Position numbers and translations under genes: made by a program. DNA of 28,250 bases, taken from positions 1-28,250 of the IMG/VR virus record IMGVR_UViG_3300047478_000091, one strand, 5' to 3'. Shown piece by piece: positions 2,713 through 27,228 of the stretch. The notes under the pieces are model-generated. The model was given only the letters and a program-made list of their open reading frames with translations, was not told the origin of the DNA and ran no database searches. Source of the stretch: a virus. Numbering within the stretch: position 1 is the stretch's first letter; the number at the start of each line of letters is the position of its first letter.

Positions 2713-4125
2713 TTATGCGGTTGGGTTGCCGTCCATATCGCGGAGTGTGTTATCGCTGTTAGACATTTTACCAACAGCACCAGACTGGCCTTGACCAGAA
2801 GAAGCCGGAGTATTGTTGTCGCCAGAAGAATCTTGCTGGCTGTTAGCGTTAGCTTCAAGACCATCAAGCTTAGACTGAGCCATTGGCGAAATACCCTTGT
2901 GCTGTGGCACAACATCCAACTCGTCCAAAACAGCAGAACGGTATTCGTCTTCCCAAAGGGCCCCAGCCTCATAAGCCAACGAAATCGCTTGGATCTGACG
3001 GTAAGTAGCTTCCTGCTCCATCTTAGGCCATTTCACACCAGACTTAGCACTAGCACCAAAGAACTTCAACACGCGACCAAACAACTGCTCCCAAATCTTT
3101 TGACGAGCCTGCATAGCCTTAATGGTTGGAACATCCAAAGTCTGTGCAGTTCCGTAAGCACCAGACGAACCAGGATCCGACATAAGCGTAACAACAGAAA
3201 CCTCCAAAGCAGAAGCCACCATAGCAGCCAAAGCGCGACCACTACCCAAGTCGACACTGTTAGAACGAGGCAAAGCATTCAACTCCATGTCCGAACCAGT
3301 AATAGCCATCGAACCAGCAGCCTGTGGCGTAGCAATCGAAGCGGCAGCTTGTGTCGCACCGTTACGGCTCTTAGCTTTCAACTGCCAAGCAAACATAGCC
3401 AACGACTTTAGAATGCGAGAACCATCCTTCAAATACTCGTTATAAGCGTGAGCCCAAGGATAAGCAGAGATAGCGTCAGGCACACCCCAAATAGTTCCAG
3501 CGCGTTTGTTAACCGCAGAAGTAAACATTACCTTAGTAGGGTCAACCGGCACACCCTCAATCGAAGAAGGGAAACGACCCATAGGAGTGTAAAGGTCAGA
3601 AGGATACCAAGCCGAAACCTGAACAGGTTTGCCACCATTCTCAGGGTGACGAGTCCAAGAACGCTTGTAATAGCGCACAAACTCCATGTCATCAGGGTCT
3701 GTAACCCAGCCAGTGATCTCGTTAAACGGAATGCGCTGAAGGTTTTTGTTGCTCATGTTACCTAGAATAAAAAACTGTCCAGCAGTAAAATGTGAGTGCT
3801 CATTAATCGCCATCGCCTGCGAACTGAACAAAACAGCCTGATTTTGAGGAGACTCAATAAGTTCCTTAACACGAGCCGAAATGTTATCAAATTCGACCCC
3901 CTTACCAAAAACATAGCTTGTGCGAAGGCCCAAACCGCGCTTTAACAGCGGGTTACCATCCACACGCTCAGACAGCTCTTTAGCGATATCGTGCAACGCA
4001 CCAAGGCTAAAAGCGTCTAATTCAGTGGCAAGTTCACCCAAAGGCGTCCAACCCTGGTCATCAAGAGCCAAAATAGCTCGTGCCATGTCGTTGTAAGACT
4101 CGTCAAAAAGGTCCGGATTTGTCAA
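2713..4125 (-). CDS. Portal protein
   Basis: About 470 residues. It forms the dodecameric ring at the capsid vertex through which DNA is pumped. The call rests on position between large terminase and protease and on features of actinophage portals: an N-terminal 'LLKRGLGLRTSYVFGKG' segment, 'FILGNMSNKNLQRIPFNEITGWVTDPDD', a central 'SAVNKRAGTIWGVPDAISAYPWAHAYNEYLKD' region, and 'KFFGASAKSGVKWP'. The C-terminal about 50 residues are Ser/Asn/Gln-rich and low-complexity. I place the start at a TTG (MTNPDLF) because GGAG sits 6 bases before it; a TTG four codons upstream overlaps that site and is less likely. Confidence 0.85.
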   Translation of the reverse strand: MTNPDLFDESYNDMARAILALDDQGWTPLGELATELDAFSLGALHDIAKELSERVDGNPLLKRGLGLRTSYVFGKGVEFDNISARVKELIESPQNQAVLFSSQAMAINEHSHFTAGQFFILGNMSNKNLQRIPFNEITGWVTDPDDMEFVRYYKRSWTRHPENGGKPVQVSAWYPSDLYTPMGRFPSSIEGVPVDPTKVMFTSAVNKRAGTIWGVPDAISAYPWAHAYNEYLKDGSRILKSLAMFAWQLKAKSRNGATQAAASIATPQAAGSMAITGSDMELNALPRSNSVDLGSGRALAAMVASALEVSVVTLMSDPGSSGAYGTAQTLDVPTIKAMQARQKIWEQLFGRVLKFFGASAKSGVKWPKMEQEATYRQIQAISLAYEAGALWEDEYRSAVLDELDVVPQHKGISPMAQSKLDGLEANANSQQDSSGDNNTPASSGQGQSGAVGKMSNSDNTLRDMDGNPTA

Positions 4126-22885: not shown

Positions 22886-23611
22886 ATGACTGAATTCCCA
22901 GCACTGCCGTTTCAATCGGCAATCAAAAAAGCTGAGGCTCTCAACACACCAAAAACTATTTTGGTTTACGGAGACCCTAAGCGAGGCAAGTCTTGGTTCG
23001 CCGCATCCGCGGCTGAAGTCGAGGCACTATCACCAGTATTGGTGATTGACACTGAGGGTGGTTCATCCGCTATTGCCCGAGACTGGAAAGATGTGGATGT
23101 TGTTGAAGTTGACAGCCACGAAAAGTTTCAGGCAACCATCTCTGCATTAGTTTCACAGCCACACAAATACAAGACAGTTATTGTCGACACACTTGGCGTG
23201 GCTATGGATCGTGCTGAGAAGTTCTTTGGCGAAAAGCCGGAGAACAAGAACAACAAGTTTGGCCGTTGGGGCGACCTGAAGAACTGGACGAATGATTTCA
23301 TTCGTGCATTCCATGGCGCACCGTTCCTGTCGATCATTGTCACCCATGCACAGGATGACAAGGACGAGAACACTGGAGCTGTCAAAACTATTCCAATGCT
23401 ACCTGGTTCATCTAAGGGGACTCTCCCAGCGATTCCAGACATTATTGGATACATGACGAGCGAAAAGACTGAGGATGGCATGCAGCGTGTGTTATACTTG
23501 CAGTCTTCCGATCGATTCGTCACCGGAAACCGCTTTGGTCTTGGTCCAAAGCTTTATGCACCAAGCATCAAGAAAATCATTGATGCAATCAACACCGTAG
23601 GAGGTAAATAA
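22886..23611 (+). CDS. Sak4-like RecA-type ATPase (AAA_24)
   Basis: 241 residues. Start set by AAGGAGG 7 bases upstream. Walker A 'GDPKRGKS' (29-36), 'VLVIDTEGGS' (51-60) and Walker B 'TVIVDT' (97-102), then 'IIVTHAQDDKD' and a C-terminal 'RVLYLQSSDRFVTGNRFGL' beta pair. This is the phage AAA_24/Sak4 pattern, single-strand annealing-type RecA-like proteins that work with an ssDNA-binding partner. The one-base overlap with the DUF669 gene downstream fits that pairing. Confidence 0.8.
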   Translation: MTEFPALPFQSAIKKAEALNTPKTILVYGDPKRGKSWFAASAAEVEALSPVLVIDTEGGSSAIARDWKDVDVVEVDSHEKFQATISALVSQPHKYKTVIVDTLGVAMDRAEKFFGEKPENKNNKFGRWGDLKNWTNDFIRAFHGAPFLSIIVTHAQDDKDENTGAVKTIPMLPGSSKGTLPAIPDIIGYMTSEKTEDGMQRVLYLQSSDRFVTGNRFGLGPKLYAPSIKKIIDAINTVGGK

Positions 23612-24096
23612 TGACAAGCATTAACATTAACATTTCAAACGACGATCTAGCGTCGACCAGCTCTGGTTCATATGACCCGATTCCAAAGGGAACTTATGCA
23701 ACCACCATCTTCACCGCGGAACTTGTTCCTGTGAAGAACGGCGAGAACGCCGGCAAGCCTCAGCTGAAGATTCAGTTGCGTGTATCTGAGGGTCAGTTCG
23801 AGAACCGCCGTCTGTTCACTTTCGTTCCGCTTTACACTGGTAAGGCTTTCTGGAAGACTAAGGCTTTCTTTGAGGCTCTTGGTTATGACATGGAGGCTGG
23901 CACTTTCCAGGTTCCTGATGTTACTGAACTTCTCGGTAAGGCACTAGGCGCTAAGGTTGCGGTTGTAGCTAACAGCGTTTCTGGTGAAGACGAGAACAAT
24001 GTCGGTGGTTTCACTGGCGCTGCATCAAGCACTGACGAGTTGCTAAAGGGCATGGGCGCAATCCCAACTGGCTCTGTCGGCAGTCCCTGGGCTTAA
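23611..24096 (+). CDS. DUF669 protein, putative ssDNA-binding partner
   Basis: 161 residues. 'IPKGTYATTIFTAELVPVKNGENAGKPQLKIQLRV' (about 22-56), 'ENRRLFTFVPLYTGKAFWKTKAFFEALGYD' and 'LLGKALGAKVAVVANSVSG' are the usual DUF669 blocks, followed by a flexible Gly/Ser-rich tail ending 'GSVGSPWA'. The family accompanies Sak4-like ATPases. The tail and position suggest an ssDNA-binding role. It is immediately followed by the RNA region. Confidence 0.8.
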   Translation: MTSININISNDDLASTSSGSYDPIPKGTYATTIFTAELVPVKNGENAGKPQLKIQLRVSEGQFENRRLFTFVPLYTGKAFWKTKAFFEALGYDMEAGTFQVPDVTELLGKALGAKVAVVANSVSGEDENNVGGFTGAASSTDELLKGMGAIPTGSVGSPWA

Positions 24097-24097
24097 T

Positions 24098-24136
24098 GGG
24101 CAACCCTGAGCATGGTTTAAAACTGCTCACACGCCC
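24098..24136 (+). other. Hairpin between DUF669 gene and first tRNA-like element
   Basis: TGAGCA (24107-24112) pairs with TGCTCA (24124-24129) around an 11-base loop, extended outward by GGGC (24098-24101) with GCCC (24133-24136). The outer pair uses the first bases of the tRNA-like element that follows, so the two structures are mutually exclusive. No T run, so not a standard terminator. Confidence 0.4.
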
Positions 24137-24202
24137 CCACTGGTGGAATTCAGGCTCTTCTCCTTGGCCTGTATAGTTCGAGTTCGATTCTCGACCGGGG
24201 CA
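24133..24202 (+). tRNA. tRNA-like element 1 (non-canonical anticodon arm)
   Basis: 5 bp of acceptor (GCCCC with GGGGC), discriminator A, and a perfect T arm: stem TCGAG/CTCGA with loop TTCGATT. The rest is odd: the only long central stem is CAGGC/GCCTG (24151-24155, 24167-24171) closing an 11-base loop whose middle triplet is CTC preceded by T; positions 6-7 of the acceptor do not pair, and a 3-bp D stem (CTG/CAG) would share bases with the central stem. Either a degenerate tRNA (Glu-CTC if used) or a tRNA-shaped RNA. CCA is not encoded. Confidence 0.35.
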
Positions 24203-24382
24203 CGTAAGACGAGGGTCTGAATAACTCTCGTGACTGCTACTACCTCCGAAGCCTTCACTGGCGGCATCGATAGTAACTGAGTTGGGTAAGCGTTCAGGCT
24301 GAGACCATGTAGGTGACCGTCTAGGAGGATAGAGTCGTTGGGAATCTCTTGGGAGACGAACCATGTTCCACGAACGACAACT
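24203..24382 (+). other. Structured spacer between tRNA-like 1 and tRNA-Thr
   Basis: 180 bases, no gene. Hairpins: ACGAGGG (24209-24215) with CTCTCGT (24225-24231), 9-base loop; a TACTA/TAGTA pair enclosing GCC/GGC; and a longer element near 24329-24377 where GTCGTT pairs with AACGAC, GGAA with TTCC and TCTC with GAGA. No T-loop-like sequence here, so no further tRNA. Confidence 0.4.
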
Positions 24383-24455
24383 GCCACCTTAGCTCCAATG
24401 GTAGAGCGCCGCCTTTGTAACGCGGATGTTATCAGTTCGAGTCTGATAGGTGGCT
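24383..24455 (+). tRNA. tRNA-Thr (anticodon TGT)
   Basis: 73 nt. Acceptor GCCACCT/AGGTGGC (7 bp), discriminator T, D arm GCTC/GAGC with GG in the loop, anticodon loop TTTGTAA giving TGT, T arm ATCAG/CTGAT with TTCGAGT. One C-C mismatch closes the anticodon stem. CCA is not encoded. Probably supplements host decoding of ACA codons. Confidence 0.9.
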
Positions 24456-24553
24456 CAGGGCTCAGTTGAGCATAGAGTATATCGATCACTCTCTATGCGC
24501 AGGCTGGTGAGGTAATTACTCTGACGTGCTGGGCGTTGCCACTCTCCCAGTAA
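24456..24553 (+). other. Hairpin-rich spacer before the tmRNA-like element
   Basis: GCTC-AGTT-GAGC (24460-24471), then GCATAGAG pairing with CTCTATGC (8 bp, 13-base loop, 24468-24502 region), then CTGGG/CCCAG (near 24529-24550). No gene and no complete tRNA. The first two hairpins share bases and would compete. Confidence 0.4.
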
Positions 24554-24631
24554 GGGTCTGGATGGTTTCGACTGTGCTTAAAGCCGTATACGGAAGTGCA
24601 CAGGACCTGGGTTCGATTCCCAGCAGATCCA
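24554..24631 (+). ncRNA. tmRNA tRNA-like domain without mRNA-like domain (mini-tmRNA)
   Basis: 78 nt. Acceptor GGGTCTG (24554-24560) pairs with CAGATCC (24624-24630), with a G3-U70 wobble and discriminator A, the alanine identity set of tmRNA. Then GGTTTCGACT (24564-24573), the hallmark D-loop replacement of tmRNA 5' ends, no D stem, a P2-like stem CTGTGC/GCACAG (24572-24577, 24598-24603), then AGGACC and T arm CTGGG/CCCAG with loop TTCGATT. From memory the actinobacterial tmRNA ends read almost the same (GGGGCTG...GGTTTCGACT and AGGACCCGGGTTCG...CAGCTCCA), with position 4-69 changed here from G-C to T-A in both strands. Where a tmRNA has its pseudoknots and tag ORF there are only 20 bases. 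CCA is not encoded. Confidence 0.65.
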
Positions 24632-24752
24632 CTATGCACCCATAGGGGTGCAGAAGCCCACAGTTCGGTGGGTTACTCTAATCGTAAGGTTAGATGTTTA
24701 TGGTCTAGGGACGCCTAGACAAGGTTTGGTCTCCTGCGGTGCAAAACGACCA
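24632..24752 (+). ncRNA. Array of five simple hairpins
   Basis: In order: TGCACCC-ATAG-GGGTGCA (24635-24652); CCCAC-loop-GTGGG with two more pairs (24655-24674); TCTAATC-GTAA-GGTTAGA (24677-24694); GTCTAGG-GACG-CCTAGAC (24703-24720); TGGTC with GACCA enclosing TGC/GCA (24727-24752). The first has a competing fold with CTATG/CATAG. Four perfect or near-perfect 5-7-bp stems within 90 bases is far beyond ordinary spacer sequence. It directly follows the tmRNA-like element and abuts tRNA-like 2. No frame or T loop seen. Confidence 0.5.
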
Positions 24753-24816
24753 GGGTAGCAGTCAGTCCCTTCTGGGTTATATTGAGAATGCTTCAGGTGC
24801 GAGTCCTGACTACCCA
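24753..24816 (+). tRNA. tRNA-like element 2 (64 nt, anticodon not assignable)
   Basis: Acceptor GGGTAG/CTACCC (6 bp), discriminator A, T arm TCAGG/CCTGA with loop TGCGAGT. The interior is short: CCC-TTCT-GGG or TTCT/AGAA with an 11-base loop are the best stems, and no standard D or anticodon arm can be drawn. It is either a decayed tRNA or another tRNA-shaped RNA like element 1. CCA is not encoded. Confidence 0.3.
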
Positions 24817-24916
24817 CGATGTGTGGTGGTTCGCACATTAAGGTAAGATTGATTTCTTATTTGGTTATTTGTTCATTGGTAACAGGTTGGCCCCCCTGTC
24901 TAAAAAGGGGCCACTT
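24817..24916 (+). other. Spacer with two hairpins before tRNA-Asn
   Basis: ATGTG/CACAT (24819-24823, 24834-24838) and TGGCCCC/GGGGCCA (24888-24894, 24907-24913; 12-base loop). The latter is followed by only CTTT, so termination is doubtful. The middle (24839-24887) is T-rich with nothing recognisable. Confidence 0.4.
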
Positions 24917-24989
24917 TGGGACATAGCTCAGATGGCAGAGCGTTCGACTGTTAATCGAAATGTCGCAGGTTCGATCCCTGCTGTCCCAG
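24917..24989 (+). tRNA. tRNA-Asn (anticodon GTT)
   Basis: 73 nt, fully canonical. Acceptor TGGGACA/TGTCCCA, discriminator G, D arm GCTC/GAGC, anticodon stem TTCGA/TCGAA with loop CTGTTAA (GTT), T arm GCAGG/CCTGC with TTCGATC. CCA is not encoded. Confidence 0.95.
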
Positions 24990-25020
24990 CGTTACAAGGA
25001 GAAGTATTACAATAGGAGGT

Positions 25021-27228
25021 ATGATGCAAGCAATAGATTTTTTTGAAACAGTCTTAGGCACTGGCGCAGGGTATGCGACAATCGTAACTAAGGATGGTAG
25101 TGGCAACCCTACAGTCCAAAAGTTTTTCAGCTACCCTGACGAGATCGATGCCATGGCTGCTTACGCAAAACAGTTTGAGAACGAGGACGTTTACTTCTCG
25201 CCAATCCTGTTTTATGAAACTCGCCGTATCCGCGAGAACGCTAAGAGCGTGTCCGCTGTGTATTCGGATGCTGACACTTGCGACCCAAAGAACTTCCGTC
25301 TACAGCCGTCAATCATTGTCAAGACTTCTGAGGGTCGTTGGCATGCATACTGGATTCTGGATGCTGAAGCTGACCCGCACCGCGTAGCAATGGCTAGCAA
25401 GCAGGTTGCTTACGGACACAAAGACCAAGGCTGTGACCTTTCAGGCTGGAACCCTACCAAGCTTCTTCGTGTGCCTAACTCACGCAACACCAAGTATGGT
25501 GATGCACAGGTTGTAGAGGCAACTAACACTGGGCTTGTTTATAAGCTTGAAGAAGTTGAAGCAGCTTATGCTGACGTTAAAGTTGATGCAGTGCTAGAGC
25601 CGTCACTCGCGCCAATGCCGGAGATTACCCCAGACGTTATGGGCATTCTTGGCAAGATCAAAAGCAATACGGAAGTGTTGTCTTTGTTCATGGACGAGCC
25701 TGGCCCGAACGCAGACTACTCTCGCATGCTTTGGAAGCTTGAGCTAGAACTCTTCCGTCAAGGTTTGACTATTGACGAAGTGTTTGCTGTCGCTAAACAC
25801 GCTCGTTGTAACAAGTATCGTAGACCAGACCGCCCAAAGCGTTCTGACCCGGACGGCGACCTGTGGCGTGAGATTCAGCGCGCCCAGCAAACTTTCCAAG
25901 TGCCTGCCGAGGTTGAGAGTGTAGAACCAATCTACATTGATGATGTTCCTGTTGAGAAACCAATCAGTCTGCTCACTGATGAAGAGCGCGCTATTGTGTC
26001 GAACACAGAAACCTTTATCGACAGGTATGTGAACTGGGCTCGCAAGAAGACTGATGGTGCTGTCGAATACCAGATTGCTAGTGCGTTTACTTTACTTTCA
26101 ACCTGTTTCTCGGACATTGGTTACGCTACGCCAAAGTATGGCAAGCTTGGTCTGAACCTTTGGTTCATGCTGTTGGGTGAAACTACTCTGTCGCGTAAGT
26201 CAACTTCGCGCCAGCTAATGCTACGCACACTCCGTTCGTTTGAAAAGTTTGCTGGCTACCAGATCGATATCGGCTCTAACGTCACTGCTGAAGGTTTAGT
26301 AAAGCACTTGGCAGGTCGCGACAAGCTGACCTCGCTGTTCCACCGCGATGAAGTCCAGGGTATGTTTAAGGAGTTCGTGACCAAAACTTACATGGCCGCG
26401 GCTGCAGACCAGTTCACTGAACTTTACGACGGACATGTTCCTGTGGTTATTCGTGCCACTGGTGCGGCTTCTGGTGTCAAGGCTGTCCAGTCGGAACGAG
26501 CTGAAACAAACTTCCTAATGTATCTGATGGGTATCACTAGCAAGGTTGCTGAGATTCTAACTGTGGACTATTTCCGTTCCGGTTTCTTGGCTCGTTTCAT
26601 TTATGTGATTGCTGATTCACCAGAGCGCACATTCGAGAGTGAAGCCATTGAGCAGTCTGCTGAAGTAGAAGTGCTTAAGCAGGATGACGAGATGGAAGCC
26701 ATCGTGCGCACACTGTATGACAGCACTTTGTATTGGCAGAAGAAAGGTGCGCCTTTCCCACGCCCAGTCCGTATGACTGACGATGCGCTAGCTCGCTTCA
26801 ACAAGTTCAAGTGGGACATGGGGAACTACTCCCAGGGCCACCCTAACGAAGAATCGATTGAGCCATCGCGTCAGCGCCTAGCACTATCGATCTGGAAGTG
26901 TGCAGTGCTTATCGCAATGTATGACAAGTCTGATGAAGTGGAAGAGAAGCATGTCCTTGTGGCTGTTCACTATGCAGAGCAGTGGTTTAAGAACCTTGTT
27001 CGCATGGCTGACTCAATCTCGGCATCAGAGTGGCAACGTGAAGTTGATGAACTTGAAGCTCTACTTGTTACTAAGGGTGGACGTATGCGTTATGAAGACG
27101 CTTACAAGAAGTTCGGTAACAAGCGTAAGCGTGAGTTCGACGAAATGGTTGACGCACTTAAATCACAGGGCCGCATGGTCGTTAGAACAGAGAACATGAG
27201 AAACTTTTTGGAGGTTACATCACGATGA
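25021..27228 (+). CDS. Primase-helicase-like replication protein
   Basis: 735 residues. N-terminal part resembles RepB/archaeo-eukaryotic primases: 'AVYSDADTCDP' with Asp83-x-Asp85, 'GRWHAYWIL' (105-113) and 'LLRVPNSRNTKYG' (148-160) with the basic residues of the family. C-terminal ATPase of the DUF3987 type: 'LLGETTLSRKST' (384-395) as Walker A variant and 'HRDEVQG' (441-447) as Walker B, with 'SGFLARFIYV' later. It should prime and unwind DNA for phage replication. AGGAGG is one base before the first of two tandem ATGs; the second (25024) has better spacing and may be the true start. C-terminal 'GGRMRYEDAYKKFGNKRKREFDEMVDALKSQGRMV' looks like a winged helix. Confidence 0.8.
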   Translation: MMQAIDFFETVLGTGAGYATIVTKDGSGNPTVQKFFSYPDEIDAMAAYAKQFENEDVYFSPILFYETRRIRENAKSVSAVYSDADTCDPKNFRLQPSIIVKTSEGRWHAYWILDAEADPHRVAMASKQVAYGHKDQGCDLSGWNPTKLLRVPNSRNTKYGDAQVVEATNTGLVYKLEEVEAAYADVKVDAVLEPSLAPMPEITPDVMGILGKIKSNTEVLSLFMDEPGPNADYSRMLWKLELELFRQGLTIDEVFAVAKHARCNKYRRPDRPKRSDPDGDLWREIQRAQQTFQVPAEVESVEPIYIDDVPVEKPISLLTDEERAIVSNTETFIDRYVNWARKKTDGAVEYQIASAFTLLSTCFSDIGYATPKYGKLGLNLWFMLLGETTLSRKSTSRQLMLRTLRSFEKFAGYQIDIGSNVTAEGLVKHLAGRDKLTSLFHRDEVQGMFKEFVTKTYMAAAADQFTELYDGHVPVVIRATGAASGVKAVQSERAETNFLMYLMGITSKVAEILTVDYFRSGFLARFIYVIADSPERTFESEAIEQSAEVEVLKQDDEMEAIVRTLYDSTLYWQKKGAPFPRPVRMTDDALARFNKFKWDMGNYSQGHPNEESIEPSRQRLALSIWKCAVLIAMYDKSDEVEEKHVLVAVHYAEQWFKNLVRMADSISASEWQREVDELEALLVTKGGRMRYEDAYKKFGNKRKREFDEMVDALKSQGRMVVRTENMRNFLEVTSR

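Follow-up and report, generated by a model that had tools for sequence, protein, structure and literature searches.

A run of perfect hairpins in a phage tRNA cluster and its place among structured spacers of related phages

Phages and prophages are known to carry structured RNAs of the ROOL and GOLLD families, in many cases close to tRNA islands (PMC12286853). In phage T4, the tRNA operon also encodes rnaC (species 1) and rnaD (species 2), structured RNAs of 139 and 119 nt, respectively, that are annotated as small stable RNAs. In tmRNA, the pair G3.U70 makes the molecule a substrate of alanyl-tRNA synthetase (PMC8363625). On truncated phage tmRNA, the literature offered no more than phage tmRNAs of the permuted two-piece type and a ribosome structure containing a fragment of tmRNA, and nothing direct was found on hairpins in phage tRNA clusters or on the T4 stable RNAs. 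The gaps between phage tRNA genes are usually regarded as empty, yet in the phage group described here they hold selected RNA structure.

The window analysed is the whole stretch of 28,250 nucleotides that makes up positions 1 to 28,250 of the IMG/VR record IMGVR_UViG_3300047478_000091. It belongs to a larger phage contig of 57 kb, IMGVR_UViG_3300044806_000037, with which it is identical across 8230 bases. Because the end of this contig overlaps its start by about 130 bases, reaching the first base of the window, it probably represents a complete phage genome that is either circular or terminally redundant. An encoded WhiB protein, together with primase relatives in Arthrobacter, Curtobacterium, Clavibacter and Streptomyces phages, points to an actinobacterial host. 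Between the genes for a DUF669/SSB-like protein and the DNA primase lies an island of RNA genes in the order TRL (a conserved tRNA-like RNA), tRNA-Thr, mini-tmRNA, hairpin array, tRNA-like element, structured spacer and tRNA-Asn (Table 1). The array starts 3 nt past the discriminator base of the mini-tmRNA and ends at the base preceding the next acceptor stem; the first-pass annotation, which had set the interval at 24632-24752, placed the start 3 nt early, inside the mini-tmRNA tail. The element that follows the array combines a 6-bp acceptor (GGGTAG/CTACCC) and a T arm (TCAGG-TGCGAGT-CCTGA) without a normal D arm. It was missed by ARAGORN and Rfam and no relative was found; a blastn match of its T arm to a phage tRNA-Met, among phage records, was not significant.

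Table 1. Coordinates of the array, its hairpins and the neighbouring RNA elements in the window
Feature	Position	Strand	Description	Basis
TRL	24133..24203	+	conserved tRNA-like RNA, pyrimidine loop with CUCCUU	
tRNA-Thr(TGT)	24383..24456	+		ARAGORN
Mini-tmRNA	24554..24632	+	tRNA-like domain of tmRNA without mRNA-like domain, G3.U70	Rfam
Complete structured spacer (array)	24635..24752	+	118 bases	folding and homologue searches
Hairpin 1 (H1)	24635..24652	+	TGCACCC-ATAG-GGGTGCA, 7 bp, loop ATAG	exhaustive search, pair probabilities
Hairpin 2 (H2)	24655..24674	+	AGCCCAC-AGTTCG-GTGGGTT, 7 bp, one G.U, loop AGTTCG	exhaustive search, pair probabilities
Hairpin 3 (H3)	24677..24694	+	TCTAATC-GTAA-GGTTAGA, 7 bp, one U.G, loop GTAA	exhaustive search, pair probabilities
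Hairpin 4 (H4)	24703..24720	+	GTCTAGG-GACG-CCTAGAC, 7 bp, loop GACG	exhaustive search, pair probabilities
Weak hairpin 5	24727..24752	+	TGGTC/GACCA, 16-nt loop	single-strand DNA fold
tRNA-like element	24753..24816	+	downstream neighbour of the array	sequence
Structured spacer	24817..24916	+	z -2.8, common to L003 at 97%	
tRNA-Asn(GTT)	24917..24990	+		ARAGORN

By using an exhaustive hairpin search, it was found that H1 to H4 are uninterrupted 7-bp stems with loops of 4, 6, 4 and 4 nt, separated by 2, 2 and 8 nt. The array had been announced as five near-perfect hairpins, with four stems of 5-7 bp. Four of the hairpins, at 24635-24720, are indeed perfect; all four, however, have 7-bp stems, and the fifth is weak, being present in the single-strand DNA fold while the RNA pair probabilities prefer other partners. 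Among 2000 shuffles of the 121-nt region that preserved its dinucleotides, not one contained three or more hairpins of 7 bp (none in 1718, one in 270, two in 12), and by the number of hairpins of at least 6 bp the array is the top 121-nt stretch of the window. Of the 120-nt stretches examined downstream of mini-tmRNAs, only one other equals or exceeds the array in its density of perfect short stems. The RNA fold reaches -47.6 kcal/mol, with z about -3.5 to -4.04, and was equalled by none of 200 dinucleotide shuffles; the energy is lower on the plus than on the minus strand (-47.6 vs -41.3), but z is not (-4.07 on the minus strand). The inner pairs of H2 to H4 have RNA pair probabilities above 0.98. 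The value for H1 is only 0.62 because TGCACC at 24635-24640 can alternatively pair with GGTGCA at 24738-24743, a rival helix (0.3-0.38) that would close the array as a multiloop. No repeats were found among the hairpins of the array. The hairpin array is real and far beyond chance.

It is neither gene, tRNA nor terminator, as had been proposed from the first inspection: no plus-strand ORF of at least 60 aa lies over the array, ARAGORN and Rfam RF00005 recognised no tRNA along its 118 bases, and the interval 23600-25100 holds no intrinsic terminator (a GC-rich hairpin followed by a T run). Searches with Rfam models, at gathering and with E up to 1, gave over the array only a sub-threshold match to the permuted tmRNA model (tmRNA_permuted, 17.9 bits against a cut-off of 47), which spans 24607-24652 and lies mostly over the mini-tmRNA. 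The Rfam tmRNA cut-off is passed by the neighbour alone, at 24554-24634, and the ROOL and GOLLD models matched nothing in the window. A tag reading frame with pseudoknots is absent from the array, four simple hairpins standing there instead. The array sits within a phage tRNA cluster, as T4 rnaC and rnaD do, and folds better than its dinucleotide shuffles, as the clade's spacers do on average.

The only copy of the array found outside the window is the one on the identical contig. Beyond it, no homologue was returned by blastn with 7-base words over about 110 loci, by two structural DNA patterns across IMG/VR, or by a covariance model run over 1.2 Mb from related loci together with 20 complete records; nor did 50,697 phage records yield one by blastn at an E-value limit of 10. 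A second covariance-model match, at 24578-24694 on the minus strand, proved to be the array's own reverse complement and was set aside as uninformative. The closest relative, locus L003, with 95% primase identity, has TRL and the last spacer in common with the window and carries a different hairpin-rich segment between them, and the points of exchange fall at RNA-gene ends.

Taken as a class, the clade's spacers between RNA genes have a mean z of -1.90, with 18 of 39 below -2, a value that would be inflated by unrecognised tRNA-like elements, which some gaps may contain, compared with -0.16 for coding control pieces (2/59) and a weaker -1.12 for the gaps of other, mostly larger tRNA-rich phages (10/42). 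When both strands of 36 clade spacers were compared, the transcribed strand had the lower minimum free energy in 29 and a mean z of -1.90 against -1.11, which argues for RNA, not DNA, as the acting form. Spacer modules reappear in different gaps of different phages. One of them, module M2, was collected from eight loci (L010 4671-4705, L089 5661-5697, L070, L090, L097, L098, L102 and L105) through its conserved tip, CCC(A/T)TTGC(C/T)G(A/C)GGC(A/G)GG, and occupies varying gaps of the RNA cluster. In its 11-bp stem 100% of the pair cells are paired and five pairs carry compensatory changes; as the set was assembled via the tip, the independent test is the outer stem only, which is where these changes lie. 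The covariation score was reached in 0 of 500 shuffles, sliding the partner destroys the pairing, and no Rfam match was obtained for M2 in the loci tested.

These results show selection on RNA structure in the spacers of this phage group; in at least one module, compensatory changes preserve the pairing while the sequence drifts. On the clade statistics, the array belongs to a class and is not one of a kind, and it looks like an extreme case of the group's structured RNA-cluster spacers. The first-pass annotation had reasoned that its structural idea would fall if related phages showed the same tRNAs with random, non-pairing sequence between them. The sequence does differ, yet on average it pairs significantly, so that the structural idea survives; homologous conservation of the array itself was not found. 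As a separate observation, two phages share a module M3 (TGCAGGAATCCC-NNNN-GGGTGACCCGCCTTG, 31 nt, 94% identity), which sits in a different gap in each, at L072 4816-4846 and L089 5703-5733.

A separate structured RNA and processing sites for a polycistron, both raised at the outset, are possible; the comparative data on the clade spacers favour a non-coding structured spacer module on the plus strand of a polycistronic tRNA/ncRNA transcript, a reading that has, in our judgement, about an even chance of being correct. Such a transcript would lead from the DUF669/SSB-like gene across the clustered tRNAs and tRNA-like elements and on into primase, and the stacked hairpins occupy the gap that opens 3 nt past the mini-tmRNA and closes at the next tRNA-like element. 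With this gap folded, the neighbouring tRNA-like units could fold and be cut independently, little free RNA would be left to 3' exonucleases and single-strand nucleases, and Rho would find no open RNA for loading ahead of the primase gene. Modules of this kind are traded between phages as cassettes, with pairing kept and sequence not. The spacer reading draws on a fold beyond chance, on clade spacers that are structured, strand-biased and modular, on the covariation of M2, on the flanks that L003 keeps around another hairpin-rich segment, and on an island in which scans found no promoter- or terminator-like sites. Against it, the array is without a homologue, covariation being established for module M2 of the relatives, and its minus strand also folds well. 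Several relatives whose RNA genes stand almost end to end, without spacers, speak against a strict need for packing, and in the island itself two other spacers, 24204-24382 and 24457-24553, fold no better than expected by chance (z 0.06 and -0.8). Complete packing is thus dispensable in some gaps.

The chief alternative is that the array is released from the tRNA precursor as an independent small stable RNA, about 110-118 nt long and with a trans function of its own. The helix between 24635-24640 and 24738-24743 can close the array around three firm hairpins, RNA ends adjoin it on both sides, and the T4 precedent includes an rnaC that is similarly over-structured (z -4.9). However, the closing helix is the minority form, and RNAs with specific partners are usually conserved in sequence somewhere, whereas the array is conserved in no other phage searched; this explanation is considered somewhat unlikely. 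A role of the hairpins at the DNA level, such as that of a single-strand origin or of a recognition region for primase or SSB, is quite unlikely. The location between an SSB-like and a primase gene would suit such a role, as would a single-stranded DNA fold of exactly five hairpins (z -3.8) and the equally good folding of the minus strand, but on that strand the G.U pairs of two stems would turn into A.C mismatches, the bias of related spacers is towards the transcribed strand, there is no switch of GC skew at the array (the cumulative minimum of the skew lies near 9 kb), and phages with both flanking genes often have no spacer. That the array is a remnant of decayed tRNA-like genes, or a neutral accident in a region rich in inverted repeats, would agree with the degenerate tRNA-like elements on both sides of it and with its lack of conservation. 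Decay of a tRNA, with its 7-nt loops and T-loop motif, would not leave four uninterrupted 7-bp stems, though, shuffles fail to yield such stems, and related spacers are under pairing constraint (module M2), which makes this origin unlikely.

The annotation had also offered a detached part of the tmRNA-like element, that is, the mRNA-like or pseudoknot portion of a split tmRNA, and the comparison of mini-tmRNA loci speaks clearly against it. The array does lie directly behind the mini-tmRNA (61.4 bits to the tRNA-like domain of tmRNA in Rfam), and the weak tmRNA_permuted match reaches into it. A mini-tmRNA pattern, however, matched 41 stretches in IMG/VR and, with earlier finds, gave 31 distinct loci (L010, L011, L013, L025, L026, L069, L109, L110 and 23 others), among them the Streptomyces phages LuckySocke and BRock, and in these 31 loci the mini-tmRNA is complete without the array. 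The sequence on its 3' side is unrelated between loci, with z below -2 in 6 of 31, and at L025 and L069 a tRNA-Asn comes right after the mini-tmRNA, which contradicts the array as a tmRNA part. Neither a tag ORF nor a pseudoknot is present in the array, and no further Rfam RNA occurs in the 36 kb of the contig outside the window, so that no separate mRNA part was recognised; a split tmRNA is very improbable. The mini-tmRNAs are 78-82 nt long and have no mRNA-like domain. All 31 carry G3.U70, the 7-bp acceptor is fully paired in 30, helix 2 and the T arm covary strongly, and the loop AAA(G/T)CCG-NNNN-CGG is fixed, in part since the search pattern required it. The mini-tmRNA is predicted to be charged with alanine, and it could act as a competitor of tmRNA or as a ligand of SmpB. 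Across 84,980 genomes of bacteria and archaea, the exact pattern gave three matches, all of them chance hits on inspection. The two Streptomyces phages gave observations of their own. In BRock (L110), ARAGORN reports at 2987-3612 a 626-nt tmRNA, likely spurious, that spans the mini-tmRNA start and later tRNAs, and it reads an annotated opposite-strand tRNA-Cys as a tRNA-Arg on the plus strand. In LuckySocke (L109), which encodes an RNA ligase, the unannotated segment 2866-2992 has a tRNA-like T arm (GGTCCGGGTTCGAATCCCGG) and also shows an apparent tRNA with a long insertion.

TRL, at the head of the island, has a short acceptor, a T arm and a stem whose pyrimidine-rich loop contains CUCCUU(U). 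About 71 distinct copies were counted, located between SSB-like and primase genes of related phages and nearly all just upstream of primase, and 55 of the 71 have CUCCUU in the pyrimidine-rich loop, against 4.2 expected from mononucleotide shuffling. The loop of the L010 copy reads ACCTCCTTT, which equals the anti-Shine-Dalgarno end of 16S rRNA, and by its sequence the CUCCUU loop appears anti-Shine-Dalgarno-like. Both the mini-tmRNA family and TRL look more novel than the hairpin array; the open-licence papers searched contained no description of either. Tentatively, and with the balance somewhat against it, these phages may keep between the SSB-like and primase genes an exchangeable set of small structured RNAs to which the array belongs; with the mRNA-less alanine-type tmRNA and the anti-Shine-Dalgarno TRL, this set would make up an RNA island whose role lies in host translation or ribosome rescue, beyond supplying tRNAs.

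Should the hairpins insulate tRNA units or stop Rho, this would explain how long untranslated gaps persist in a replication operon, and if spacers like the array were separate RNAs, they would represent an unexplored class. The island also brings to attention two conserved and apparently undescribed RNAs, TRL and an mRNA-less tmRNA that occurs in cultured Streptomyces phages.

Compared with the described systems, the array resembles T4 rnaC and rnaD as a structured segment in a phage tRNA operon, a precedent by position, not by homology, as sequence and model similarity are absent: the array covariance model R1 found nothing in L154, and blastn with E up to 10 gave no T4-like match. T4 rnaC moreover ends in a T-arm-like hairpin (GGGTTCGAATCCC), while the array does not. 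ROOL and GOLLD are far larger (many GOLLD RNAs exceed 800 nt), are conserved and form Rfam families. The likeness to tmRNA (RF00023) and permuted two-piece tmRNA (RF04321) belongs to the neighbouring mini-tmRNA and not to the array, which lacks a tag ORF, a resume codon and pseudoknots and is missing from other mini-tmRNA loci. In form the array resembles the structured spacers of polycistronic tRNA precursors: like them, it would set hairpins between the tRNA units of one transcript, and it conforms to the pattern of the other clade spacers; its sequence is unique.
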